A model generated the notes under the pieces. The model did no database searches. It worked only from the letters and a program-made list of their open reading frames with translations, and was not told the DNA's origin. The position numbers and the translations under genes are program-made. A DNA stretch of 64,000 nucleotides from Candidatus Brocadia sp. (lineage in GTDB: Bacteria; Planctomycetota; Brocadiia; Brocadiales; Brocadiaceae): contig WYAU01000075.1 in NCBI GenBank assembly GCA_011525665.1, forward strand, positions 62,001-126,000. The letters run 5' to 3'. The number at the start of each line of letters is the position of its first letter. The first letter of the stretch is position 1. This document shows, in pieces, positions 16,837 through 59,714 of the stretch.

Positions 16837-17155
16837 AGTTTTTAATACTAAATAATCTGCGTGTTTATTTCAACTACGTAATTTTTAAAAAAGGGTAAAT
16901 TTTTTAATGAATGTGCCGATATATTAGAGATAAATAGCCGGGTAGCTGGTGCTGTGAGACAACGATTTTATATGTGTTTATTTTATCTAAAGTTAGAGAG
17001 GACTCTCCAGCGGAAAAAGTTCCGTGGCGGGAAATCTTACAACAGTGGTGGTCATGGACTGTGAAGGAGTAAACAGAAAATCAGTTGACGGATACAACAT
17101 GAGGATTTATCATCATTGGTGGTAAGGTTATTTATCAATTTTTGGGAGATTAAAA
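16837..17155. other. Leader region of flgM
   Basis: This 319-base divergent gap between the CNNM gene and flgM contains the sigma-28 promoter at 16896-16922, which implies an untranslated leader of about 230 bases for flgM. A small inverted repeat CGGAA/TTCCG lies near 17021-17034. I see no gene here. Confidence 0.5.
16896..16922 (+). promoter_or_regulatory. Sigma-28 (FliA) promoter upstream of flgM
   Basis: TAAATTTT (-35), an 11-base spacer and GCCGATAT (-10) match the flagellar sigma-28 pattern TAAAGTTT-N11-GCCGATAA with two mismatches. The position upstream of flgM fits the common late-class control of the anti-sigma factor by its own sigma. Confidence 0.75.
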
Positions 17156-17488
17156 ATGCCAATTGAAGATGTTTCCAAAACCTCTTTGCACCACGGTATT
17201 GCTGGTACAAACCGTACCGAGGTAAATCAGTTACAAAAAAAACTGGAAAAGGATGAGGTCCCTGTCCCGGAAAAATTTGATTCAGTGAATATTTCCAGGG
17301 AAGCAAGGGATCTTGAAAAGGCGATTGAGAACCTAAAGACCCGTGTGGATGAGATGTCTGACGTAAGGGACGCAAAGATTAAAGAAGTTAAAGAAAAATT
17401 AGAAAATGGTTATTATGACCGTCCAGAGGTGATTGAACAAGTAGCGAAGAAGGTTGCAGATGCTTTTCGTATTAAAAAGCACGATTAA
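17156..17488 (+). CDS. flgM: Anti-sigma-28 factor FlgM
   Basis: FlgM binds FliA (sigma-28) and keeps filament genes off until the hook-basal body is complete, when it is exported. The 110-residue, highly charged protein has the family core in its second half: VNISREARDLEKAIENLKTR, then VRDAKIKEVKEKLENGYYDR and EVIEQVAKKVADAF. The first half is disordered-looking, as in other FlgM proteins. Start ATG at 17156 with GGGAG eleven bases upstream. The sigma-28 promoter at 16896 and the fliA gene at 47025 support the assignment. Confidence 0.85.
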   Translation: MPIEDVSKTSLHHGIAGTNRTEVNQLQKKLEKDEVPVPEKFDSVNISREARDLEKAIENLKTRVDEMSDVRDAKIKEVKEKLENGYYDRPEVIEQVAKKVADAFRIKKHD

Positions 17489-17783: not shown

Positions 17784-17834
17784 GTTTGCACGAAAGATAC
17801 CTTTTTCGACAATTAACCTTTGGCGACGGTTATA

Positions 17835-19010
17835 ATGATTTGGAAATATCAAAAATTACTGGCGTTGATTGTCTTTTCGATTGTTACAGCAAGTATTGTC
17901 GCGGGAAATGACCCAAAGCCACAGGTTGTTGTTTTTCCATTTAAGAGCAACCAGAGTTTACAAGGCCTTCTTCAGGGAATCGAAGATGTACTGAGGAGTG
18001 AATTGATCCGTTCTGGATATTTTATCGTCGTAGAACAAGAGCGTATGTATGAGTTTATAAAAGAGACCGTACTGTACAACTTTATAAAAATTGAAGATGT
18101 GGATGTGGAAACAGCTCTTCCCCGTGCAACTATTGTTGATTTGTTTGCAAGGGTTGATTTGAAGGTGAACATTCGGATTGCAGAAAAGCTAAAAGCAGAT
18201 TTTGCAGTTAAAGGGTCTCTTAATCAGTTTGGAGAAAAATTTCGGGCAGATATTGAAGTCGTAAATGTGAAGGGAAAAGAGACGTTAGGCGCGTTGGTGG
18301 GTGAATGTGATTCGCAAGAGAGAATTTCAGAGATGATGGAAGAAATCTCGCAACAAATCGTTGATGTTTGTAAAGGCGCAAGCATACTGAATGATATTGA
18401 CCATATACAGGGCAGTTATCAGCAAGGGAATTTTACCTACGAAGAAACTTCAGATAGATTAAAAAGTCTTTCTTGTGAGATGCCGGGGTCGTTTCTCATT
18501 CACTGTGCCTTATTTTTGCACTATTTGGGACATCATGAAATGCGAGACGGTTTGATTGAAGAAGGTGAAGAGGTAATAAATCTTTTTAATCCTGACAGCG
18601 AGGCGGATATCAGGTATTTGTCCCTTTTAGGTATGGACCCCTTTTATGAACTGGCCAATGTGTATAGTACTATGGGAAAGATTGATAATGCAATAAAGGT
18701 TTATAATCGGGCAATCCGGGTATATCCCCTGAATCACACAAGATACTACAAACAGTTAGGGGTATTATACAAACGTGAGGGTCAAACTGAACTTGCTATT
18801 AGCGCCTTTAAAAAGGTTTTAAACGTGAATCCGGCAGATTATGAGACAAGAGTGATGCTTGCCTCCGTGTATGAAGCCAAGGGCGATATATCAAACGCCC
18901 TTGAACAATATCGGCATTCCCTGAATTACGCGACGAATGCGGCAGAAAGTTCACATGTAAAAGAAATGATTAAACGGCTTCAGTCAAAAAAAGGTGTTGA
19001 AAAGAAATAA
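17835..19010 (+). CDS. Exported CsgG/FlgO-like protein with C-terminal TPRs
   Basis: From the ATG at 17835 this is a 391-residue protein with a signal peptide (hydrophobic about 8-24, ending near IVAGND). Residues 28-180 resemble the CsgG/FlgO/TolB-N fold: PQVVVFPFKSN, then DVLRSELIRSGYFIVVEQER, then ADFAVKGSLNQFGEKFRADI. FlgO is an outer-membrane-associated flagellar protein in vibrios, so a role at the cell envelope around the flagellum is plausible. The C-terminal third has at least three TPR units (for example AISAFKKVLNVNPADYETRV). It lies behind the terminator at 17732, so it needs its own promoter or read-through. The N-terminal homology is judged by eye. Confidence 0.65.
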   Translation: MIWKYQKLLALIVFSIVTASIVAGNDPKPQVVVFPFKSNQSLQGLLQGIEDVLRSELIRSGYFIVVEQERMYEFIKETVLYNFIKIEDVDVETALPRATIVDLFARVDLKVNIRIAEKLKADFAVKGSLNQFGEKFRADIEVVNVKGKETLGALVGECDSQERISEMMEEISQQIVDVCKGASILNDIDHIQGSYQQGNFTYEETSDRLKSLSCEMPGSFLIHCALFLHYLGHHEMRDGLIEEGEEVINLFNPDSEADIRYLSLLGMDPFYELANVYSTMGKIDNAIKVYNRAIRVYPLNHTRYYKQLGVLYKREGQTELAISAFKKVLNVNPADYETRVMLASVYEAKGDISNALEQYRHSLNYATNAAESSHVKEMIKRLQSKKGVEKK

Positions 19011-19015
19011 TGAGC

Positions 19016-19030
19016 TGGCATATTGTTTGC
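19016..19030 (+). promoter_or_regulatory. Sigma-54 promoter upstream of the first sigma-54 regulator gene
   Basis: TGGCATATTGTTTGC matches TGGCA-N6-TTGC exactly. The predicted start near 19042 leaves a leader of about 125 bases to the ATG at 19169. Confidence 0.7.
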
Positions 19031-19168
19031 CTTTAGATAATAAAAGTTTTTTCTACCAGAAAGTGTTGAATTGTTCCACTTGTTATGGTAACCTCTCAAG
19101 TGCGTGTTTAAAAAATAAACATTTTTGTGTGCCAGGTAGATCGTTTTTCTGTAAAAAGGGGGGGGTAA

Positions 19169-20575
19169 ATGTCATCGAAGGCAATAATCCTTGTTGTGGA
19201 CGATGAGGAAACGATTCGGTTTTCCATAAAAGAGTTTTTAGAAGGACAAGGGTATGAGGTCATTGCTGCGGAAACATGCGAACGGGCGCTGGAAAAAATA
19301 AATGAGTTTCTGCCGGATCTGGTGCTTTTGGATTTGAGATTGCCTAATATGGGTGGGATAGAACTCCTAGAAAAGGTAAAAACAAAAGACCCGAATGCCT
19401 TGATAATTGTTATGACGGGGTACGGAAGTGTTGACTCTGCTGTAGAGGCAATGAAGATAGGGGCTTATGATTATCTGGAAAAGCCTTTTAAGACGGAACA
19501 TTTGAAATTGGTTATTGAGAAGGCCCTGGGCACCCAGGCATTGAGGAGAGAAGTGCTGGAATTACGGGCACAACACTGGACTTTTGCCGATGAGCCGGGT
19601 GGCACGATAATCGGGAACAGCCGGCAAATGAAGGAGGTTTACGGTCTCATTAAACAGGTCGCAAAGAGTCCGTCAACAACGGTTTTAATACAGGGAGAGA
19701 GTGGTACGGGAAAGGAACTTGTTGCTCGGGCTATTCATCATTTAAGCGTGAGGAAGAATGGTCGTTTTGTTGATATCAATTGTGCTGCTTTGACGGAGAG
19801 TCTTCTTGAAGCGGAATTGTTTGGATATGAAAAAGGGTCCTTTACGGGTGCCACCACAACCGGTAAGCCGGGTTTATTTGAGGTTGCTGATAAAGGGACC
19901 GTCTTTTTGGATGAAATAGGTGAGATGGGCATTACCTTACAAGCGAAGCTTTTGAGGATACTGCAAGAAAGACAATTTAAGAGGGTGGGCGGGATTAATG
20001 ATATCAAGATTGACGTCAGGGTAATTGCATCAACCAACCGGAATCTGGAGGAAGAGGTAGAAGGAGGTAATTTCAGAAAAGACCTTTATTATAGGTTGAA
20101 GGTATTGCCGATTTATGTCCCGCCACTGAGGGAAAGAAAAGAAGACATCATGCTCCTGGTGAAACATTTTGTGCATAAATATAACAGCGAATTTAACAAA
20201 AACATTCATCACATACCGCCAGAAACAGAAAGGTTACTTTTGGAATATCATTGGCCCGGAAACATTCGTGAGTTAAAAAACGTTATTGAACGGGCAGTCT
20301 TGATATCGAGCAATGGTGCGCTACAACCGGAATTGGGTTTTACTATTGATTCCGGAAAAAAAATGATCATTGGTGAAGATATGAACGACATACGCGACAA
20401 TGGGGAAAACGAGGATGAATTGAACGTCCGTTCATTGGCCAATATTGAAAAACAGCATATCCAGAGAGTTCTTATTGAAACATCGTGGCGGAGAACCGAA
20501 GCGGCCAGGATACTCGGTATCAATAGGACTACATTATACAATAAGATAAAAGAATATGGCTTGAGTCCGTCATAA
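19169..20575 (+). CDS. NtrC-family sigma-54-dependent response regulator
   Basis: A 468-residue activator of sigma-54 RNA polymerase. The receiver (1-120) has acidic residues VDDEE, phospho-acceptor Asp55 in LVLLDLRLP and Lys in EKPF. The AAA+ domain (about 145-380) has Walker A GESGTGKE at 176-183, GSFTGA at 223-228 as the variant of the sigma-54-contacting GAFTGA loop, and the arginine-finger region. A Fis-type HTH ends the protein (TEAARILGINRTTLYNKIKE). Start ATG at 19169 after a strong G-rich ribosome site. Neighbouring genes suggest flagellar or partner-switch control; no kinase is adjacent, but the one at 26892 could serve. Confidence 0.93.
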   Translation: MSSKAIILVVDDEETIRFSIKEFLEGQGYEVIAAETCERALEKINEFLPDLVLLDLRLPNMGGIELLEKVKTKDPNALIIVMTGYGSVDSAVEAMKIGAYDYLEKPFKTEHLKLVIEKALGTQALRREVLELRAQHWTFADEPGGTIIGNSRQMKEVYGLIKQVAKSPSTTVLIQGESGTGKELVARAIHHLSVRKNGRFVDINCAALTESLLEAELFGYEKGSFTGATTTGKPGLFEVADKGTVFLDEIGEMGITLQAKLLRILQERQFKRVGGINDIKIDVRVIASTNRNLEEEVEGGNFRKDLYYRLKVLPIYVPPLRERKEDIMLLVKHFVHKYNSEFNKNIHHIPPETERLLLEYHWPGNIRELKNVIERAVLISSNGALQPELGFTIDSGKKMIIGEDMNDIRDNGENEDELNVRSLANIEKQHIQRVLIETSWRRTEAARILGINRTTLYNKIKEYGLSPS

Positions 20576-20595
20576 ATCGGCTGATCTGCGTATTC

Positions 20596-20610
20596 TGGAT
20601 TGAGCGTTGC
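20596..20610 (+). promoter_or_regulatory. Possible sigma-54 promoter of the receiver-HATPase gene
   Basis: TGGATTGAGCGTTGC has the essential GG and GC at the right spacing and a perfect TTGC, but AT in place of CA in the -24 element. It is 58 bases before the ATG at 20668. Confidence 0.45.
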
Positions 20611-20667
20611 ATCAAACCTGCCGGGAACATTCTCCTTCTATTCTTTCTACGTTTTAAATAGTAGTGA

Positions 20668-22197
20668 ATGGGCATGAAAAAAAGGATATTGCTGGTTGAC
20701 GACGAAGAAACTCTACGGTGGGCTTTACAGGAAGCCCTGACGGAAGAAGGTTACAACGTGGATAATACCGGCGATGGTGTTAATGCCCTGGAATTCATTA
20801 GAAAAGCCCATTTTGATTTGGTGATCAGCGATCTGAGAATGCCCACAATGGGAGGGTTGCAATTAATTTCTGAGATAAAAAAAATACGTCCGGATATTAA
20901 ATCTATTGTTATCACTGCATATGGGTCGATAGAGACAGTGATAGAGGCAATGCATATTGGCGTGTCAGATTTTATGACGAAACCGTTTAAAATCGAACAG
21001 ATTAAAAGTGTTATACAAAGGGTTTTGAATGGTCCTTCAATTTTAAATAATAATGGCGGAGACAAAGGTAGTGCGGGATTGAAAATTGAATATGGCGATC
21101 CTTGCAGGCAAACGAATACATGTTTTCTCGCAAAGGATATGGCAGGAACTGAAAACCATCTCCTGTATGATTATGTTGAGAAGGGGTGGTTAAGAGCGCT
21201 TTTGTTTGGGATCGTCTCTGATGAGGGAAATGCAAATAATTTCGATCTTGTAGTGAAAACAATCTTCCGCTATGGGGTAAAAGAAAGTAAATTTCCCGCA
21301 TCTTTGCTCAACGATATTAATCAGTATCTTTGTAATAATATTTTCCCGAGGTTTCCCGTGTCATTATTTTGTGCCATTTCAGATGTGGAAAAGCAAACAC
21401 TCTTCTACTCGGCATACGGGGAAGAGCTAACTGCTCTTCTCTGTTTTCCGACGAAAGAAGTAAAAGGGTTGGAATCGTTTCCATTTCCCTTGAATATGTT
21501 TCCCGGTACGATGATAGGAGAAAGTTCCGCACCTTTTATATCCGGCAGTAAATTGATTTTGTTATGCAGTAGGACAGTGTCGAATGGTCTGAGAAACGGA
21601 GTAATTCCTTATGAGGAATTACGAGGTGTGGTTGCTGGCGCCTGCACAGCCAACTGTGAAGACATGGCAAAAGGTATTAAGTTTCAGCTTGGCGGACTTG
21701 ATAAATCAGTCGCCGGAGAAAAAGGCACCGCGGTGATGGTTTCCGGTCTTGAATGTGAAACAGATATTGCCTGGGAAGAGGTGATATCGATTCCATTCCC
21801 TATCCATAATTATGGGAAAATAATGGAACGCTTTGATAAAAAATTATCGTTTCTCGTGGAGGATAATTTCAAGAGATATCAAATTATTACGTCCATCAAT
21901 GAGGCTGTTTTGAATGCTGCTGCTTTTGCATATAACAAGAATGCGAAAGGGGAAGTTTTGCTAAAATTTTCAAAATTAGGGAATGAAATTGTTATTGCTG
22001 TTTGCGATCAGGGTTGCGGGTTTGATATTCGGAATTATAAAGCGCCGGACGTGACGTTGTACGATGACTTAACCCGAAAGAGCGGCAGGGGGATATTTCT
22101 TATAAGAAATTTCATGGATCGGGTAATGATACAATCCTCGAAGGAGATAGGGACCGCCGTTCATATGGCAAAACGAGTGACCTGTAATGAAAATTGA
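20668..22197 (+). CDS. Receiver + degenerate PP2C phosphatase + HATPase protein (partner-switch type)
   Basis: A 509-residue, three-part regulator. Residues 4-122 are a receiver with Asp55 in LVISDLRMP and a TKPF Lys. The middle (about 145-350) follows the layout of SpoIIE/RsbU-type phosphatases, but the metal-binding residues are lost: where active enzymes have DxxGHG it reads GIVSDEGNANNF, and the later GH and TDG motifs are absent. The C-terminal 385-505 is an RsbW/SpoIIAB-like HATPase with NEAVLNAA, CDQGCGFD and GRGIFLIRNFMD, so it may still phosphorylate or bind partners. It overlaps the STAS gene by 11 bases. I infer it controls that STAS protein in response to phosphorylation. Confidence 0.8.
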   Translation: MGMKKRILLVDDEETLRWALQEALTEEGYNVDNTGDGVNALEFIRKAHFDLVISDLRMPTMGGLQLISEIKKIRPDIKSIVITAYGSIETVIEAMHIGVSDFMTKPFKIEQIKSVIQRVLNGPSILNNNGGDKGSAGLKIEYGDPCRQTNTCFLAKDMAGTENHLLYDYVEKGWLRALLFGIVSDEGNANNFDLVVKTIFRYGVKESKFPASLLNDINQYLCNNIFPRFPVSLFCAISDVEKQTLFYSAYGEELTALLCFPTKEVKGLESFPFPLNMFPGTMIGESSAPFISGSKLILLCSRTVSNGLRNGVIPYEELRGVVAGACTANCEDMAKGIKFQLGGLDKSVAGEKGTAVMVSGLECETDIAWEEVISIPFPIHNYGKIMERFDKKLSFLVEDNFKRYQIITSINEAVLNAAAFAYNKNAKGEVLLKFSKLGNEIVIAVCDQGCGFDIRNYKAPDVTLYDDLTRKSGRGIFLIRNFMDRVMIQSSKEIGTAVHMAKRVTCNEN

Positions 22198-22573
22198 GAG
22201 ACAAGAAAAAGAAAAGGCCACGATTTTGTTGCCGACAGGTGATTTAGTTTATGAGGGGATAGACGAACTTGAAACACTTTTTCAGACATTGAATGATGAT
22301 GGCCGTTATGTCATACTTGATCTCGCAAATACAAGCTATTTGTCGGCAAAGGCGTTGGGCATCATGGCATTTTATGTAAAACTCTTCCGGGATAAACAAC
22401 GGGGACTGAAACTTATTCATGTGAACGAGAATATAAAAAAGTTATTTGATGTTACCGGCATACAGAAAATTATTGAGATATTCGAGAGCGAAGGTGCTGC
22501 TCTGGCGAGTATCGGGTTACAGGTTGGAAAGCTGGAGAAAACGCTTTTATGGTCAAATGAGCATTTCGGGTAA
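22187..22573 (+). CDS. STAS-domain protein (anti-sigma-factor antagonist type)
   Basis: A 128-residue single STAS domain, as in SpoIIAA/RsbV. The core reads YVILDLANTSYLSAKALGIM, followed by LKLIHVNENIKKLFDVTGIQ. In typical antagonists the corresponding motif is DSSGL, with the second Ser phosphorylated by the partner kinase; here position 55 is Lys, so the usual switch residue is missing. ATG at 22187 overlaps the upstream HATPase gene, so the two proteins are probably made in equal amounts and interact. Confidence 0.8.
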   Translation: MKIERQEKEKATILLPTGDLVYEGIDELETLFQTLNDDGRYVILDLANTSYLSAKALGIMAFYVKLFRDKQRGLKLIHVNENIKKLFDVTGIQKIIEIFESEGAALASIGLQVGKLEKTLLWSNEHFG

Positions 22574-22602
22574 AAATTCTGATTAAGAGGTTAAATACAA
22601 AT

Positions 22603-23493
22603 ATGTCTGATACGGTTCAGCAGGATAAAACGGAATTCGCAGGGGAAATTGGTGTGCAGACACCGGAGATGGTGAATGACGTTTCCAAGAAATCCGGGGA
22701 CAGAAAATTCTCCCGAAGAAGGTTGGATGTTTCCCGCATTATTTTATTGTTTCGGCAATATGGAATTTCAATATCTGTGAACCTGGTGATCCTCGGAGCG
22801 GTTTGTTTTTTGTTCCTGTTCCAGAGGGATTGGATGAAGGGGGGGAACAACGATATTGGACGTATTGTGGAAGAAAAGGTGATGGAGACCATTAAAAAAA
22901 ACCTGTCTTCAAATGAAGTTTTGTCAGGTATTGCAGGAAAGAAAAAAACTAACGGGGATAAGCTTTCAGAGCAAAGAAATGATGAGGAAGAGCAGAATGC
23001 AAGGGGTAAATCTGGCACAATAAAGGTTGATAACTCGAAATATATAATCGAGGCGAACAGATTCTATGAACAGGGAAACTATGAAAAGGCAGCAACTTTT
23101 TATGAAAAAGGATTGGATAAATCATTACCCTTTGTAAATGAAGATTTTGCAGTGTACCGTTTGGGTGATTGCTATTTAATGTCTGGAAAATACGAGGAGG
23201 CGTTAACGGTATTTCAGACATTAAACAGTGATTATGTCAACAGCCCGTATCAATTTAAAAGCCGATTGAAAATAGGCGAGTGTTACGCGGCGATGGGAGA
23301 ATTTAAAAAAGCGCGGAAAACACTCTACACAGTGGTGGCGCAAGAGGGAAAATGTTGCTCTGATGACGACAGACTGACGGTTGTAGACTCTTATTTTAAA
23401 ATTGCAGAGTATTATTTACAAGAAGCCGAACGACTTCGCAATGCGGGTGGTGGAGGAGCCGGACATCCGGAACGTCCTCTGGTTTTGAAATAA
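22603..23493 (+). CDS. Membrane-anchored TPR protein
   Basis: A 296-residue protein with a charged cytoplasmic N-terminus, one membrane helix at about 55-72 (ISISVNLVILGAVCFLFLF), a coiled-coil-like and charged linker, and a C-terminal half of TPR units (FYEQGNYEKAATFYEKGLDK; YRLGDCYLMSGKYEEALTVF; KIGECYAAMGEFKKARKTLY). The topology predicts the repeats outside the cytoplasm. It follows the STAS gene by 29 bases and precedes the STN-TPR gene, so these are probably co-transcribed. The CpoB/YbgF group has similar repeats but I would not assign that name. Confidence 0.75.
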   Translation: MSDTVQQDKTEFAGEIGVQTPEMVNDVSKKSGDRKFSRRRLDVSRIILLFRQYGISISVNLVILGAVCFLFLFQRDWMKGGNNDIGRIVEEKVMETIKKNLSSNEVLSGIAGKKKTNGDKLSEQRNDEEEQNARGKSGTIKVDNSKYIIEANRFYEQGNYEKAATFYEKGLDKSLPFVNEDFAVYRLGDCYLMSGKYEEALTVFQTLNSDYVNSPYQFKSRLKIGECYAAMGEFKKARKTLYTVVAQEGKCCSDDDRLTVVDSYFKIAEYYLQEAERLRNAGGGGAGHPERPLVLK

Positions 23494-23578
23494 GCCGATT
23501 ATGTTTGATGTTAAATGACGCAATGGCAGGGCGACAGGCTCGCTTCTCCAGATAAAAAGTTATTGGTCGTCTAATTAA

Positions 23579-25405
23579 ATGAAAAAAATTTTGCCTTTTA
23601 CCGTAGTGTTAATCGTGAATGGTTTTCTGACGATATTTTCTTGTTCTCTTGTGCGGGGAGAGGAAAGCGTAAGCATTCCTATCGATATTTATGAGAAATT
23701 AGATGCAGAGAAACAGAATCTGGAAAAACTTCAGACGCAGTTACAGATACTTGAAACAAGCGAAGATGAAGGGGGAGAGGGTCAAAAAACTCAGTCTCAA
23801 ATTGATGACCGGATTAAAAGTAAACAAGTAAACAGGCTTCCGATCGTGATTAATCCGAATGAGAATATTGTGCTGACAAAAGAAGTAGGGGAGTATGGTG
23901 TTGCCGTGTATTCAATTGACGCAACTCAGGTACAGGTCGCGGATGTGCTGCAGGCATTATCAGCAAGTTTTGGCAAGAGTATTATTGTGGATGATGAAGT
24001 TGATCCCGCCAGCTTGTCTTCTTACGTAAATATTTCCATCAAAAAGAGTCCATTACAGGATATATTGGAGATGGTACTGGGAATGCGTGGTTTGGAATTT
24101 ATTCAGAATGAGGATTCCGTTTTTGTTACGTCTTTAGCAAAACTTAACATTGACACCGCCTTTGAGTATTATAGGGATAAGGGTATCCATCTGTACCAAA
24201 AGGCACAAATAAAATATCCCCATGACCGGAGAATCGTAAAGGCATATTTTGAACTGGGGAATTATTATTATGAGCTGGGTTTTAATTTTCTTGCATTGCA
24301 GGAATACCAGATTGTTGTGGGAAAGTACAAAGGAAGTCCTCAGGCCAAAGAATCTTTATTCAGGATAGGCCGGTGCTATGACAATTTAAAAGATTCTGAG
24401 AGCGCTCGTCGGGCATATTTCCAATTTATCTATAGTTATCCAAAAGATCCCTTAGTGGCTGATGCGCTTTTATCAATTGGTGACTCCCTGGCGGAACAAG
24501 GCCTTTATCATAAGGCAATAGATATCTATGAAAGGGTTATTCGTGACTTTGCCGATGACAATACGGCTACTACCCGGGCACAATTTGCTATGGCAAAAAC
24601 CTATATGAAGATGGGGGACTACAGGAACGCAATAGCGTTGTATGTGAAGGCGAGGGAAAAGTATTATTCAGATCAGATGAGTTCGGAGATTGAATATCAG
24701 ATAGGCAATTGTCTGTATCTGTTGAATGAATACCAGGATGCAGGAAATGTTTTGGGGAATTTTTTGGCAAATGAGCAGGGAGGAGAGTTCATTGAAAAGG
24801 CCGCTTTTTTACTGGGTGATTGTTTTTATAAACAGGATAATTACCTGGGGGCGTTTCTAATATGGAGAAAAATCACGGAAACCTATCCGAAGAGCAGTAA
24901 GATTCCCTCTGCGCTGTATGGCATGGCAAAAAGTCTGAAAGCGATGAATATGCCGGAGTCTGCAATAAAGACACTCCGTGAAGGGATGGAAGCATATCCT
25001 GATGATGATTATGCCGGTAAAATGGCAATTGAAATAGGAAGGTGTTATTTTGATAAAGGCGATTATTGGCTGGCATATAATGCATTTGATAGTTTCGTGA
25101 GGCAATATCCTGACAGTGAACTGGTTATGGAAGGTATGGTGGGGATGGCGGATTCACTCCTGAATGACAAAAAATATGAAGAAGCGATAAAGAGGTATAT
25201 CGAGTTGCTAAAAGCGAGTAATGAAGAAAAGATAAGACGGTATGCTTTTAATCGAATAGGCGACTGCTACAAGCATATGGGAAAACTGGAACGGGCGGTC
25301 AAGGCATACCGGATGGGCCTAGACAGCAACAAGGATACAATTCAGGAGTCATGGGCTATTGACGATCCCACAGGTACGAAGACCAGCAATGTGCAACATA
25401 TGTAG
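23579..25405 (+). CDS. Exported STN-domain and TPR protein
   Basis: A 608-residue exported protein: signal peptide (MKKILPFTVVLIVNGFLTIF), a coiled coil around 38-60, then an STN (secretin and TonB N-terminal) domain near 108-182 with VYSIDATQVQVADVLQALSA and VNISIKKSPLQDILEMVLG. The remaining two-thirds are about ten TPR/BamD-like repeats (YFELGNYYYELGFNFLALQE; LLGDCFYKQDNYLGAFLIW). No secretin barrel follows, so the STN unit is used here as a contact domain of an envelope scaffold. It sits in a run of regulatory and exported TPR genes inside the flagellar region; a structural role at the outer membrane is only an inference. Confidence 0.75.
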   Translation: MKKILPFTVVLIVNGFLTIFSCSLVRGEESVSIPIDIYEKLDAEKQNLEKLQTQLQILETSEDEGGEGQKTQSQIDDRIKSKQVNRLPIVINPNENIVLTKEVGEYGVAVYSIDATQVQVADVLQALSASFGKSIIVDDEVDPASLSSYVNISIKKSPLQDILEMVLGMRGLEFIQNEDSVFVTSLAKLNIDTAFEYYRDKGIHLYQKAQIKYPHDRRIVKAYFELGNYYYELGFNFLALQEYQIVVGKYKGSPQAKESLFRIGRCYDNLKDSESARRAYFQFIYSYPKDPLVADALLSIGDSLAEQGLYHKAIDIYERVIRDFADDNTATTRAQFAMAKTYMKMGDYRNAIALYVKAREKYYSDQMSSEIEYQIGNCLYLLNEYQDAGNVLGNFLANEQGGEFIEKAAFLLGDCFYKQDNYLGAFLIWRKITETYPKSSKIPSALYGMAKSLKAMNMPESAIKTLREGMEAYPDDDYAGKMAIEIGRCYFDKGDYWLAYNAFDSFVRQYPDSELVMEGMVGMADSLLNDKKYEEAIKRYIELLKASNEEKIRRYAFNRIGDCYKHMGKLERAVKAYRMGLDSNKDTIQESWAIDDPTGTKTSNVQHM

Positions 25406-25923
25406 CAAAGAGGAATCACATTGTAGTGAACGGCAGCAATGATTCTGCCCTCATGAGAAAAAAAGAGATTTTTTACTTATTATTGCCGCTGACAGTTTCG
25501 CGTTAAAATTATGTGAAATTCCCTGTAGCCCACTAGAGGAGATGGAACTGTCCAAAATTGCACATGCCGTTTAAAAAGGAACATCTAGCGAAATTTCCCC
25601 TTTTTCCTTCCCGTTTTAATTTTCAACTGATAATACAAAAGGATGTCGATATTTTATTGTTGTAATGTGTCCTCTTTGACTTTTTAAAAACAAAACAATG
25701 CGATAAAATAAGCAATAATCTCCTTTTCCATCGTTTCGATTGTGATTGTTCTTAAGCTGCTTCTCATTCATCAGTTACGGTATTTTCAATCCCTGGAATC
25801 ATCCCTTCGCATGTGGATATTTTTTGTCAATTTGCACCCCTGGCATACTGCTTGCGGATTCATCAATTGGTAATAGTATAGTGTTTTAAAACTAATAATT
25901 TAGACAATTCTTATGGTGATTTT
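25406..25923. other. Intergenic region with sigma-54 promoter
   Basis: About 520 bases without a gene. The first 430 bases are AT-rich with no clear structure or open frame. The sigma-54 promoter at 25841 is near the right end and serves the downstream three-gene unit. Confidence 0.55.
25841..25855 (+). promoter_or_regulatory. Sigma-54 promoter of the TPR-kinase-regulator unit
   Basis: TGGCATACTGCTTGC matches TGGCA-N6-TTGC exactly. The predicted start near 25867 is about 57 bases before the ATG at 25924. Confidence 0.75.
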
Positions 25924-26871
25924 ATGATAGCAAAGAAAGTACTTTTCTGTATCGGGATTATTTTGGGGTGTGTGCCTTCCCTTTTTGGCGAAAACGAAAA
26001 CATTGCCTCCCGGAAAATACACAATGCTCCGGAATCATCAAAAAATTCATTTGCACGAGCGGAAGTTGCAGGTGATATTGAAAGACCACTGCTGCGACCC
26101 ATTCTGGCAGAAAAGAATGGTGCCGCTGTGAAAGACGGGGAAGCGGCAGAATCAGTGTCGAACTCCACGGCAGAGCAGTGCATAGAAAATATCATGTCAA
26201 TTCTCCAGGAGGAGAGAAAGAAACTTCAGGAATTAGAAAATGAATATAAAAGATTAAAAAATGACGGTGCTATAAATTCAGAGACAGATGTGAAAAGGGA
26301 GAACGAACCCATTGTTTCTTCGGCTGGTGACGTTCGTGGTAACGACCGATTACAATTTAATGGCAAATCCCCAATATCAGGTACCTCCTCGGCATTAAAT
26401 AACATATATTCATTAAAAGATGCGGGTATGAGGAACGGCAGCCCGTCTGATCAGATCTCTGCTATAAAGGATACCAAAAAGGCGGAAGCTGTCTTAAGTG
26501 ATGACGTGAATCAGCAGTTATCGAAGGCAATTGGGAATCTGAGTAGAATCGATCTTGCAGAGTGTCTTTATAAATTATGCGAGTATGATAAGGCACTGCA
26601 GATGTATAAATTACTTACGCCGGACGATATTCCAATGGATCAGTACCTGTGGGTTCAATACCAGATTGCAAATTGTTATAGGAACATGAAGGAATTCGAC
26701 AGTGCCTTTAGTGAGTATCAGCGTTTTATCAATCAGTATCCCGGCAGTGATTTGGTAGACCAGGCAAAGTGGTACATAGAAGACATTGCCTGGTGGAAGT
26801 CCTGGTATGAGAAGAACTCATTGGTTCGCAATCAACTGCTTGCGTCATCAGTCAGCCATGAATCCAAATAG
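25924..26871 (+). CDS. Exported protein with coiled coil and C-terminal TPRs
   Basis: A 315-residue protein with an N-terminal signal peptide (MIAKKVLFCIGIILGCVPSLFG), a long low-complexity middle, a coiled coil at about 90-115 (EERKKLQELENEYKRLKNDG) and two or three TPR units near the C-terminus (LAECLYKLCEYDKALQMYK; YQIANCYRNMKEFDSAFSEY). It should be periplasmic. It is the first gene after a sigma-54 promoter and 20 bases before a cytoplasmic histidine kinase, so it may share the regulon of, or report to, that kinase. I do not recognise the family. Confidence 0.75.
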   Translation: MIAKKVLFCIGIILGCVPSLFGENENIASRKIHNAPESSKNSFARAEVAGDIERPLLRPILAEKNGAAVKDGEAAESVSNSTAEQCIENIMSILQEERKKLQELENEYKRLKNDGAINSETDVKRENEPIVSSAGDVRGNDRLQFNGKSPISGTSSALNNIYSLKDAGMRNGSPSDQISAIKDTKKAEAVLSDDVNQQLSKAIGNLSRIDLAECLYKLCEYDKALQMYKLLTPDDIPMDQYLWVQYQIANCYRNMKEFDSAFSEYQRFINQYPGSDLVDQAKWYIEDIAWWKSWYEKNSLVRNQLLASSVSHESK

Positions 26872-26891: not shown

Positions 26892-28214
26892 ATGACGGAA
26901 AACGTATTTGCAAAAGACTTTTCAAAAAATCGGGATGTCGACCTCGTTGCTGCTTTTCACTTATTCAATCAGTATACCCAGCGGCTTGAAGAAGCTTACA
27001 ACCAACTCCAAAACAGGGTTAAAGAGATTGACCGGGAAATGGCATATACAAATGCATGCCTGAAGGATAAAGTAGAGGAGTTGGATAGTCTTACGAAATA
27101 TTTAAACAGCCTCTTGAGCAGTATTCACAGCGGTGTTATTGCGGTGAATTTAAGGGGCGAAGTGACTATGCTGAATAAGGCTGCAGAAAAAATATTAAAC
27201 CTGGATGCATCGGGTGTGATGGGGAAAAGGGTCGAGTCCTTTTTTCAAAGCAGTGATGGTAGTAAACCGTTGCTGCTCCTGGCTCTTGAGAGCGGGAAAA
27301 ACTGTATAGATGTTGAACGAAAAATAGAAACAAATAAAAGGGTGTTGAAGTGGATTGAAAGCAGTGTGTCGCTGATCAAGGATGTAAATGAAAATACGAT
27401 AGGTGCTGTGGAGGTATTCAGGGATTTGTCGGAAATCAGGGAACTGGAGATGCGTCTGAGGAATGCGGATAAATTGGCCGCCATTGGCGCTATGGCAGCA
27501 TGTATTGCCCATGAAATTCGCAACCCTTTGAATAGCATAGAAGGGTTTTCCGCCTTGCTTGCAAGGGATTTTGAGGATTCGGATCCGAGGAAAAAGCTGG
27601 TCAGGAATATCATACAGGGCACAAAGAATTTAAACAAGACGGTAACCGAATTGCTGATCTTTGCCCGTCCGCTCAGGTTGAAATTAAGAAATAATAGTAT
27701 TTCAAATATATTGGACAAGACGCTTTTTTTTGTGGCAGAAGATATGAGACAAAGGGGCCTTACGAATATTCTTATCCGGAAAGACTATACTGTGGACACA
27801 GACTTTTTGCAATGTGATTCTGAGAAATTGCACCAGGCTTTTTTAAACCTTTGTCTGAATGCTGTTCAGTCCATGGCGTGCGGGGGTTGTTTGACAATAT
27901 TTACCCGCCTGGTGGAGGGCAATGTACAAGGAAACATCCAGGTAGGGATAAGCGATACCGGGACTGGGATTAAAAAAGAAGTTGTCCATAAGATATTTGA
28001 CCCGTTTTTTACCACAAAACAAGAAGGGACCGGTTTGGGGCTGGCGATTGTAAGCAGGATTATTGAGGCGCACAACGGGAAAATATATGTGGAAAGCATG
28101 GAAGACAGGGGGACGACTTTTTATATCAATTTACCGAGAAATGGTAATTGCCATACGGATGTTTTCAATGATGCATATCTAAAAAACGAGACCTTGATAC
28201 CGCAGTTTGTATAA
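26892..28214 (+). CDS. PAS-domain sensor histidine kinase (FlgS/FleS-like)
   Basis: A soluble 440-residue kinase. A coiled coil covers about 28-70, then a PAS domain (SSIHSGVIAVNLRGEVTMLN) to about 180. HisKA follows with the phospho-acceptor His207 in CIAHEIRNPLNSIEGFSALL. The HATPase has LHQAFLNLCLNAVQSM, SDTGTGIKKE and GTGLGLAIVSRIIEAH. There is no membrane helix. FleS in pseudomonads and FlgS in campylobacters have the same soluble PAS-HK layout and start the sigma-54 flagellar cascade; the next gene is a sigma-54 regulator and flgB follows, so the same job is likely here. Start ATG at 26892. Confidence 0.88.
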   Translation: MTENVFAKDFSKNRDVDLVAAFHLFNQYTQRLEEAYNQLQNRVKEIDREMAYTNACLKDKVEELDSLTKYLNSLLSSIHSGVIAVNLRGEVTMLNKAAEKILNLDASGVMGKRVESFFQSSDGSKPLLLLALESGKNCIDVERKIETNKRVLKWIESSVSLIKDVNENTIGAVEVFRDLSEIRELEMRLRNADKLAAIGAMAACIAHEIRNPLNSIEGFSALLARDFEDSDPRKKLVRNIIQGTKNLNKTVTELLIFARPLRLKLRNNSISNILDKTLFFVAEDMRQRGLTNILIRKDYTVDTDFLQCDSEKLHQAFLNLCLNAVQSMACGGCLTIFTRLVEGNVQGNIQVGISDTGTGIKKEVVHKIFDPFFTTKQEGTGLGLAIVSRIIEAHNGKIYVESMEDRGTTFYINLPRNGNCHTDVFNDAYLKNETLIPQFV

Positions 28215-28284: not shown

Positions 28285-29685
28285 ATGAGTGTTGAAAAGA
28301 TATTGGTTGTAGACGATGATACGCTGAGTCGTGAATATCTTTGTGAGGCATTGACGAGAGCCGGGTACTATGTCGTTCCGGCAAGTGACGGGCATCAGGC
28401 GATAGCCAGGATTGGCAAAGAGGGATACGATTTGATTTTCCTGGATATGAAAATGCCGGAAATGAGCGGCATGGAGGTGCTCGAGAAGGTAAAGGCTAAT
28501 TTCCCGGAGACCGTTGTGATTCTTATGACAGCTTACGGTACCATAGAGACGGCTGTTGAGGCTATGAAAAAAGGGGCGTATGATTACATTATTAAACCAT
28601 TTTCCCCGGATCAGATCGAACATCTAATTTCCAGAGTTAATGAGCGGCAAAAATTAATAACGGAGAACAGGTATTGGAGATCTCATTCAAACGCTGATGA
28701 AAAATTGAATCCTGTCTTTAGCCGGAATTCCAGAATGTCCCAGATATATGAACAGGTTAAAAAGATCGCGCCAAGCAAGGCAAGCGTCCTTATTCAGGGG
28801 GAAAGCGGCACGGGAAAGGAACTCGTTGCACGTGCGATACATTATCATAGCCATCGGTTCGAAAAACCTTTTATAAGGGTTAATTGCGCAGCTCTGGCAG
28901 AAACCCTTTTGGAAAGCGAACTGTTTGGACACGAACGAGGGGCTTATACTGGCGCCATTTCAAAACACGCAGGACGTTTTGAATTGGCGAACGAAGGTAC
29001 TTTATTGCTTGACGAGATCAGCGAAATATCACCCAATGTACAGGCCAAATTGCTCCGGGTTCTTGAAGAGGAAGAATTCGAACGGGTAGGGGGAGAAAAA
29101 ACCATAAAGGTTGACGTGAGAGTTATCGCGACGACAAACAGGAATCTGATGGACGAAATTCAGAAAGGCACTTTTCGTGAAGACCTTTTTTATCGTCTGA
29201 ACGTTGTCCCCATCCATTTACCGCCCTTACGGGAAAGACGTGAGGATATACCACTGCTTGTGGACTACTATCTGAAAAAGTATGGTCTCGAAAATGACTC
29301 TATCGTGAAATCTGTCGATCAGGAGGCCATGGATTATTTGTGTTGCCATGATTGGCCGGGAAACGTGAGGGAATTAAAAAATGTGATACAAAGGGCCATA
29401 GTTATGGGTTCGTCAGAAACGCTTCAGATTGGGCAGTTCACAGGTCTTTTTAAGCATCAGGAAATAAAACGGATTGAAAGTGCATTGCCAGGAGGTGCAG
29501 GAAAGGCTATTGAGGATGTGGAGAGAGACCTGATTTTCAGCACGCTTGAGAAAACGGGTGGAAATAAAACCAGGGCTGCAGAGCTGCTAAAGATCACGAC
29601 CAGGACTTTGCGAAATAAACTTCATAAGTACGATACAGAATACAAATCCTCGTTAGACCAAGAAACAATTTCCTGTGTGAAGTGA
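28285..29685 (+). CDS. Sigma-54-dependent response regulator (FlgR/FleR-like)
   Basis: A 466-residue NtrC-type activator and likely partner of the kinase just upstream. Receiver: VVDDD, Asp54 in LIFLDMKMPEMSG, KPF. AAA+ domain: Walker A GESGTGKE at 172-179, the sigma-54-contact loop as GAYTGA at 219-224 (Phe to Tyr, a tolerated variant in the family), and LLDEISEISPNVQAKLLRV. A Fis-type HTH ends the protein (NKTRAAELLKITTRTLRNKL). ATG at 28285 follows AGGGGAA. Its place directly before the sigma-54 promoter of flgBC-fliE suggests it activates the basal-body operons. Confidence 0.92.
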   Translation: MSVEKILVVDDDTLSREYLCEALTRAGYYVVPASDGHQAIARIGKEGYDLIFLDMKMPEMSGMEVLEKVKANFPETVVILMTAYGTIETAVEAMKKGAYDYIIKPFSPDQIEHLISRVNERQKLITENRYWRSHSNADEKLNPVFSRNSRMSQIYEQVKKIAPSKASVLIQGESGTGKELVARAIHYHSHRFEKPFIRVNCAALAETLLESELFGHERGAYTGAISKHAGRFELANEGTLLLDEISEISPNVQAKLLRVLEEEEFERVGGEKTIKVDVRVIATTNRNLMDEIQKGTFREDLFYRLNVVPIHLPPLRERREDIPLLVDYYLKKYGLENDSIVKSVDQEAMDYLCCHDWPGNVRELKNVIQRAIVMGSSETLQIGQFTGLFKHQEIKRIESALPGGAGKAIEDVERDLIFSTLEKTGGNKTRAAELLKITTRTLRNKLHKYDTEYKSSLDQETISCVK

Positions 29686-47024: not shown

Positions 47025-47789
47025 ATGAGTACGATAAATAAAAGCAAGCCGAGTTATGCAAGCGAAAATTTAGCGAGGCGTGATAAATTAATTACTGACA
47101 ATCTCTCGTTAGTAAAGTACGTCGTAGGGAAAATTATGGTGTATTTGCCTTCATTTGTGGACAAAGAAGACCTCGTAGAATATGGCGTGCTTGGTTTGAT
47201 AGAGGCTGCGGAAAAATACGATTCAAAAAATAATGCAAAATTTGGAACATATGCCCTTTCCCGTATCCGTGGCGCAATCCTGGATCACCTGAGATCTCAG
47301 GATTGGTTGCCGCGTTCCATGCGTGACAAGGCAACACGGGTAAAAGAGACGTACATTTCACTGGAACAGAAACTCAACAGGCCGCCGCGTTCGGATGAGG
47401 TTGCCGCGGTACTTAAAATGAGTCCGGCAGAATGGGATAAATTACTAACGGATATCAGCTTGGGCACTTTTTTTTCGCTTGAAGAGTTTTACCAAAAATC
47501 TGAAAATGCAGCGGATGGAAATAGACGTCAGGAAATCAACGATCCCAAACTTCACGATCCTTTAAGTGATCTGGAGACAAAGGAAGAGAAATCCATCCTC
47601 GCAAAAGCCATTACAGAACTGCCGAAAAAGGAAAGATTGGTAATTACTTTATATTATTACGAAGATCTTATGCTGCGGGAGATAAGTGAATTAATGGGCA
47701 TCTCGGAATCGAGGATATCCCAGCTTCATCATCGCGCTTTATTCTTGCTTCGGGCCAAAATGAGCAAGATTACCCTGAACACGTTTTAA
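47025..47789 (+). CDS. fliA: RNA polymerase sigma factor FliA (sigma-28)
   Basis: FliA directs transcription of late flagellar genes. The 254-residue protein has region 2 (NLSLVKYVVGKIMVYLPSFV; DLVEYGVLGLIEAAEKYDSK; FGTYALSRIRGAILDHLRSQ, then DWLPRS), region 3, and region 4 with an HTH (LREISELMGISESRISQLHH). All are typical of sigma-28. ATG at 47025 follows AAAAGGGGG. Its predicted target promoters are found at 16896 (flgM) and 59714-59688 (flagellin 2). Confidence 0.95.
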   Translation: MSTINKSKPSYASENLARRDKLITDNLSLVKYVVGKIMVYLPSFVDKEDLVEYGVLGLIEAAEKYDSKNNAKFGTYALSRIRGAILDHLRSQDWLPRSMRDKATRVKETYISLEQKLNRPPRSDEVAAVLKMSPAEWDKLLTDISLGTFFSLEEFYQKSENAADGNRRQEINDPKLHDPLSDLETKEEKSILAKAITELPKKERLVITLYYYEDLMLREISELMGISESRISQLHHRALFLLRAKMSKITLNTF

Positions 47790-59558: not shown

Positions 59559-59687
59559 CATTAACCTCCTTGTTGTAGTGTTTTTTCCCGTATTCCATGA
59601 CGGAAAGAAAACCAGGTTGTTTTAAAAGAAACATACAGTATTTGACCGACCTGTCAGGTCTTTTGCAGTTTTCGGTACCTGGTTGAA

Positions 59688-59714
59688 TTATCGGCAGGGG
59701 TTTTAAAAAGTTTA
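59688..59714 (-). promoter_or_regulatory. Sigma-28 (FliA) promoter of flagellin 2
   Basis: On the - strand TAAACTTT, an 11-base spacer and GCCGATAA match the sigma-28 consensus with a single mismatch, and the -10 is perfect. The predicted start near 59681 gives a leader of about 120 bases. Confidence 0.88.

Follow-up and report, generated by a model that had tools for sequence, protein, structure and literature searches.

Can a partner switch still operate when the residue that accepts the phosphate and the phosphatase that removes it have both been lost? In the textbook view a partner switch turns on the phosphorylation and dephosphorylation of one Ser, and the question is raised by two genes that overlap by 11 nt in a flagellar locus of Candidatus Brocadia (the window, that is the whole stretch of 64,000 nucleotides analysed here, from a genome that, among named relatives, is closest to Candidatus Brocadia MAG_8 and B. 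pituitae). According to Pfam, the first product carries a receiver, a PP2C-like domain and an RsbW-like HATPase in a single protein, and the adjoining gene encodes a single-domain STAS protein, as indicated by ORF, Pfam and structure matching. The features of the pair are as follows.

20668-22197, + strand: receiver-PP2C-like-HATPase protein, HsbR-like, 509 aa (ORF, Pfam and orthologue alignment)
20668-21033, + strand: receiver domain with acceptor Asp55 and active-site residues intact (Response_reg, PF00072, 7.3e-30)
21148-21783, + strand: SpoIIE/RsbU-type PP2C domain without metal ligands, a pseudophosphatase by Pfam and alignment (SpoIIE, weak match of 8e-05)
21784-22194, + strand: RsbW/SpoIIAB-type HATPase domain with intact ATP-binding boxes (HATPase_c_2, PF13581, 3.2e-16; SpoIIAB 1til, E 3.2e-09)
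22187-22573, + strand: STAS-domain protein, SpoIIAA/HsbA-like, 128 aa (PF01740, 1.6e-10; AF2 model, Foldseek)
22343-22348, + strand: codons of Ser53-Ala54, Ala54 in the phospho-Ser column and Ser53 in the preceding Asp column
22520-22570, + strand: C-terminal tail of the STAS protein past the STAS domain, VGKLEKxLLW (orthologue alignment)

Both ORFs had been recognised in a preliminary description made from the sequence alone, and their overlap is identical in the six orthologous pairs for which coordinates were read. That description had also called the receiver normal and the RsbW-like HATPase intact, which agrees with the orthologues: D12, D55 and K105 of the receiver are invariant in 17 of them, T83 is found in 16 and replaced by Ser in one, and the N, G1 and G2 ATP boxes of the RsbW/SpoIIAB kinases are all present, with E412, N416, D447, G449, G451, G473-R474-G475 and T496 invariant in the same 17 sequences (one of which is truncated at the C terminus and does not count in the last columns). 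Since the catalytic residues of the HATPase are retained, E412 included, a real kinase activity is possible. The full-length AF2 model of the three-domain protein was poor (pLDDT 41.7) and was set aside.

The middle domain of the window protein matches the SpoIIE profile only weakly, yet it is taken as a genuine SpoIIE/RsbU domain because its relatives match the same profile, namely seven of the seven aligned orthologues (PF07228, best 3.4e-10) and the proteins of families f88 and f89 (in a sister family, 7.8e-10 over positions 25-190 of 192). Membership of the sequence family is accompanied by loss of the metal site, as the preliminary description had proposed. When 25 Brocadiales PP2C-like proteins (16 from Brocadiaceae, one from family f89 and eight from the sister family f88) were aligned with canonical planctomycete SpoIIE domains bearing the GGDxYD, DVxGHG, TDG and DDxT motifs, the first three metal-binding Asp were missing in all 25, and the fourth was lost or variable in Brocadiaceae and retained in f88 and f89. 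Because the three Asp are absent from every one of these relatives, the domain is, on sequence grounds, an ancient pseudophosphatase, a long-dead phosphatase. The dN/dS of this region, 0.19-0.30 in comparisons with unsaturated dS, indicates constraint and therefore retention as a pseudophosphatase domain rather than decay. The receiver, the HATPase and the STAS protein have values of about 0.03-0.26, and all domains of the pair are thus under purifying selection (0.03-0.30). With two canonical catalytic features gone the pair might be regarded as a decayed remnant without function, but this selection, the invariant receiver and ATP boxes, and the occurrence of the same losses across several genera and one further family make such an explanation so improbable that it was rejected.

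The STAS protein had been described as lacking its switch Ser and as having Lys55 in that place; the first part stands and the second is one residue off. The alignment with the SpoIIAA profile is ungapped and pairs Ser53-Ala54-Lys55-Ala56 with Asp57-Ser58-Ser59-Gly60, so that Ala54 falls in the column of Ser58, the number given to the SpoIIAA switch residue in PMC8256260, and Ser53 in that of Asp57. Lys55 was accordingly ruled out as the switch residue; its own position is variable in the 16 orthologues (11 Lys, 2 Arg and 3 Asn). Alignments were made with SpoIIAA structures and also with these 16 orthologues, one of them from family f89, to which the B. subtilis SpoIIAA sequence was added; the STAS frame of one further genome, G258, is broken and was excluded from the counts. 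Ser53 and Ala54 are invariant in 16 of 16, and are among only ten residues that are. HsbA is absent from the alignment, and the equivalent of its Ser56 was read from the SpoIIAA Ser58 column, in which the invariant Ala54 offers no phosphorylatable Ser. As a background, 23 STAS proteins encoded at most 1.5 kb from RsbW-like genes were taken from a sample of other planctomycete loci: the switch column is Ser in 23 of 23, and the column of Ser53 is Ser or Thr in most. Ser53 is therefore the usual residue for its column, and the change amounts to loss of the switch Ser. The AF2 model of the STAS protein (pLDDT 81.6) found its best PDB matches in SpoIIAA and RsbV bound to their kinases SpoIIAB/RsbW. 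In 1TID, a SpoIIAB complex with ATP, the SpoIIAA chain is the S58A mutant (PMC13373217), and, judged by the alignment, the Brocadia STAS protein is at this position a natural counterpart of that mutant.

An invariant Ser53, together with a HATPase that keeps its catalytic residues, could also point to an acceptor shifted by one residue, in which case the HATPase would phosphorylate Ser53 and an unrelated phosphatase would erase the mark. We judge this unlikely. The preliminary description had allowed that Ser53 might take the switch position, but it aligns with Asp57 and not with Ser58, and it is likelier to be a helix cap because Ser is common there in planctomycete STAS proteins that keep the following switch Ser. 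The fused PP2C domain is moreover dead, and profile searches of the window genome, which covered the SpoIIE and PP2C_2 families, returned no other SpoIIE-type domain and no PP2C_2 match, so that a phospho-Ser mark would be left without an obvious eraser from these two PP2C families. The same inventory indicates that the pair contributes the only strong RsbW-type HATPase of the genome, the next match (C64, L074) being an ordinary histidine kinase, and its only stand-alone STAS protein, the other match (C110) following a SulP-like transporter ORF (L079).

The tail VGKLEKxLLW lies outside the STAS fold and may form an effector-binding helix; G114 and E117 are invariant in the 16 orthologues, a helix is predicted with low confidence at 114-123 of the AF2 model, and SpoIIAA has no such tail.

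The preliminary description knew of no system with this combination of domains, which is in fact the architecture of HsbR-HsbA of Pseudomonas aeruginosa, where a receiver-PP2C-HATPase protein and an adjacent STAS gene occur in flagellar gene regions (PMC6482189, PMC5085249). In Pseudomonas, unphosphorylated HsbA binds FlgM and thereby frees FliA, HsbR phosphorylates HsbA at Ser56 and the PP2C domain of HsbR removes the phosphate (PMC6482189, PMC5085249); HsbA S56A gives the non-phosphorylated behaviour (PMC5085249). The two systems, compared by description and not by sequence, share the three-domain protein, the neighbouring STAS gene and the flagellar region, whereas the Brocadia pair has Ala in the acceptor column and a PP2C domain without a metal site. 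CrsR-CrsA of Shewanella oneidensis has the same three-domain protein and a STAS antagonist but controls RpoS with a working kinase and phosphatase (PMC6482189). In both HsbR and CrsR a catalytic PP2C resets the STAS protein, a feature absent here with three of the four metal Asp gone. SpoIIAB-SpoIIAA and RsbW-RsbV of Bacillus resemble the pair in their HATPase and STAS folds and ATP boxes, the STAS model being closest to complexed SpoIIAA; they differ in that the Brocadia STAS protein has the S58A-type Ala and that phosphatase and receiver are fused upstream of the HATPase.

Signalling without the acceptor has a precedent in the RsbS S59A mutant of the B. subtilis stressosome, in which a STAS/kinase switch still signals in the absence of Ser phosphorylation (PMC3944199), although this is an engineered mutant and a different complex. 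For SipA-sigmaSsdA of Actinoplanes, RsbW-like and STAS domains have been modelled and proposed to act by binding (PMC10733313), but the domain fusion is another one, with the STAS domain on the sigma factor. In the available part of its description, RbaV/RbaW/RbaY of Rhodobacter links a receiver-PP2C protein to a STAS/HATPase pair and an rbaW mutant is non-motile (PMC3999984); these are three separate genes, and that part mentions no catalytic loss. The architecture is thus not new, being shared by HsbR-HsbA and CrsR-CrsA, in which the chemistry works. The novelty lies in the loss, conserved here, of both halves of the Ser-phosphorylation cycle, and no natural pair with both losses was found described in the open-licence literature.

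Because the binding parts are kept while the metal site and the phospho-Ser are lost, and this throughout the group, the pair probably works by regulated binding alone. A binding-only, receiver-gated mode had already been suggested in the preliminary description and fits the invariant Ala54, the dead PP2C domain and the absence of any other match to the PP2C families searched. We see about even chances that the pair is an HsbR/HsbA-like flagellar partner switch that has lost its Ser-phosphorylation cycle. In such a switch the receiver would be phosphorylated by a histidine kinase, which would change the presentation of the C-terminal RsbW-like domain, the dead PP2C domain relaying or capping the change. 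Loaded with ATP, the HATPase domain would bind the STAS protein through a SpoIIAA-type interface and, with Ala at the acceptor place, phosphorylation could not end this binding, so that the state of the receiver alone would hold or release the partner. The held or released partner would then control flagellar transcription, most likely via FlgM/FliA as HsbA does, or alternatively via the sigma-54 regulator of the same putative operon. In its full form, the proposal describes a natural partner switch free of any protein Ser/Thr phosphorylation, used for flagellar control across the family and beyond it, in which an Asp signal of the receiver would pass through a pseudophosphatase to an ATP-dependent docking of the STAS protein, with the tail of the latter as a possible effector-binding element; the probability that it is correct seems to us evenly balanced. 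If true, a long-conserved switch without acceptor and eraser would mean that docking gated by a two-component receiver suffices, and the pair would offer a ready system in which to study how pseudophosphatase domains carry signals. The pair also makes flagellar control in anammox bacteria accessible to testing, a subject on which a search of open-licence papers found no publication.

Evidence on the target comes from the neighbourhood of the pair, in which the following features were located.

17156-17488, + strand: flgM, anti-sigma-28, candidate partner (PF04316, 2.7e-08; FliA-type site at 16896-16922)
19016-19031, + strand: sigma-54-type promoter-like site TGGCATATTGTTTGCC, intergenic, before the putative operon with the pair
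19169-20575, + strand: sigma-54 response regulator with receiver, AAA+ and Fis HTH (PF00158, 1.1e-69), directly upstream of the pair
22603-23493, + strand: TM/TPR protein, conserved gene that comes next after the pair
26892-28214, + strand: PAS histidine kinase of a flagellar two-component pair
28285-29685, + strand: second sigma-54 response regulator, before flgB (PF00158, 1.4e-72)
47025-47789, + strand: fliA, sigma-28, candidate end target (TIGR02479, 8.6e-74)

The order in the window is flgM, a TolB-N/TPR gene, the first sigma-54 regulator, the pair, TPR proteins, the histidine kinase and the second regulator, followed by flgB, flgC, fliE, fliF and onward. This bears out the earlier placing of the pair between two sigma-54 regulators, one directly upstream and the other 5.7 kb downstream, and inside a flagellar locus that has flgM (3.2 kb upstream of the pair) and also fliA. 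FliA-type promoter sequences were matched perfectly before flgM, at the site listed above, and at 59688-59714 before the flagellin gene at 59561. The region 17820-26871 encodes TPR proteins near the regulators (TolB-N/TPR, TM/TPR, GspD-N0-like/TPR and a TPR protein with signal peptide), a set that is syntenic with the regulators across these flagellar loci, f88 included.

FlgM/FliA is the most natural candidate target; which partner the switch acts on, and in which sense, is an inference. Linkage of the pair to flgM is weaker than its linkage to the upstream sigma-54 regulator, since in neither genus g2 nor G261 does flgM adjoin the pair, whereas the 19169-20575 regulator adjoins it in every readable orthologous locus. 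A binding-only module whose output is this regulator, FlgM/FliA being uninvolved, would agree with so constant a neighbour and with the sigma-54-type site before the gene group. The start codon of the regulator gene follows that site at a distance of 153 bp. Of ten related loci tested, four (L009, L010, L128 and L124) have the GG-N10-GC core of the site as well, at 154-177 bp, and six (L122, L127, L131, L123, L125 and L126) do not. Operon linkage may however merely reflect co-regulation, and we are aware of no case in which a sigma-54 activator is the target of an RsbW or STAS protein; this output is therefore considered possible but rather doubtful.

Among 246 genomes sampled from the phylum, the full architecture was confined to the family of the window, and a tblastn search of a plasmid collection returned no relative from outside the planctomycetes. 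The search in other planctomycetes that had been proposed at the outset found the pair in Brocadiaceae relatives and in family f89, where it is complete and has Ser-Ala as in the window, and conservation of the system extends to the level of the order. Of 33 Brocadiaceae genomes, 18 carry the pair and 17 of these have fliA, against 3 of the 15 that lack the pair (Fisher p 1.4e-5, uncorrected for kinship). A flagellar role of the pair is thus likely. FlgM is present in flagellar genomes of both families, so its occurrence does not follow that of the STAS gene alone. In one genome, G070 (L133:15182-17797), fliA and flhG have broken frames and the flagellar locus is in separate pieces, whereas the pair and the genes around it are intact; unless this reflects an assembly error, it is mild evidence against FliA as the sole target. 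Apparent stops in fliA of G182 and G228 and in fliF of G182 proved to be artefacts of over-long alignments, the frames being intact.

As CrsR and HsbR both bind RpoS (PMC6482189), the module might instead control a general-stress-like sigma factor in the manner of CrsR. The sigma-70-family genes of the genome comprise two RpoD-like, two RpoS/RpoH-like, FliA and two ECF genes, with classes other than FliA assigned by eye from size and sequence, so that two further group-2/3-like factors (L137 and L139) are at hand. The pair nevertheless accompanies flagellar genes, and most relatives without flagella lack it. In this genome-wide list no sigma-70-family gene, and hence none of SigB/SigF type, lies beside it, and the orthologues, for which the preliminary description had left room for an ordinary stress-sigma operon, adjoin flagellar-type sigma-54 regulators instead. 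A stress sigma factor as target is accordingly regarded as improbable.

In family f88 the same place is occupied by a small HisKA-only protein together with a receiver-pseudophosphatase that lacks the HATPase, and there is no STAS gene; in G239 it is occupied by the HisKA-only protein alone. This protein (PF00512, no HATPase; L123:8420-8917, L125:11416-11922 and L126:14308-14613 in f88 and G239) is encoded between the gene of the sigma-54 regulator and the one that follows, and may serve the receiver-pseudophosphatase in phosphotransfer, as HptB serves HsbR. Finally, G106 has a second gene of FliA type (L134:2068-2823) that shares 63% identity with the fliA of the window and is located near a sigma-54 regulator and away from the main flagellar locus.
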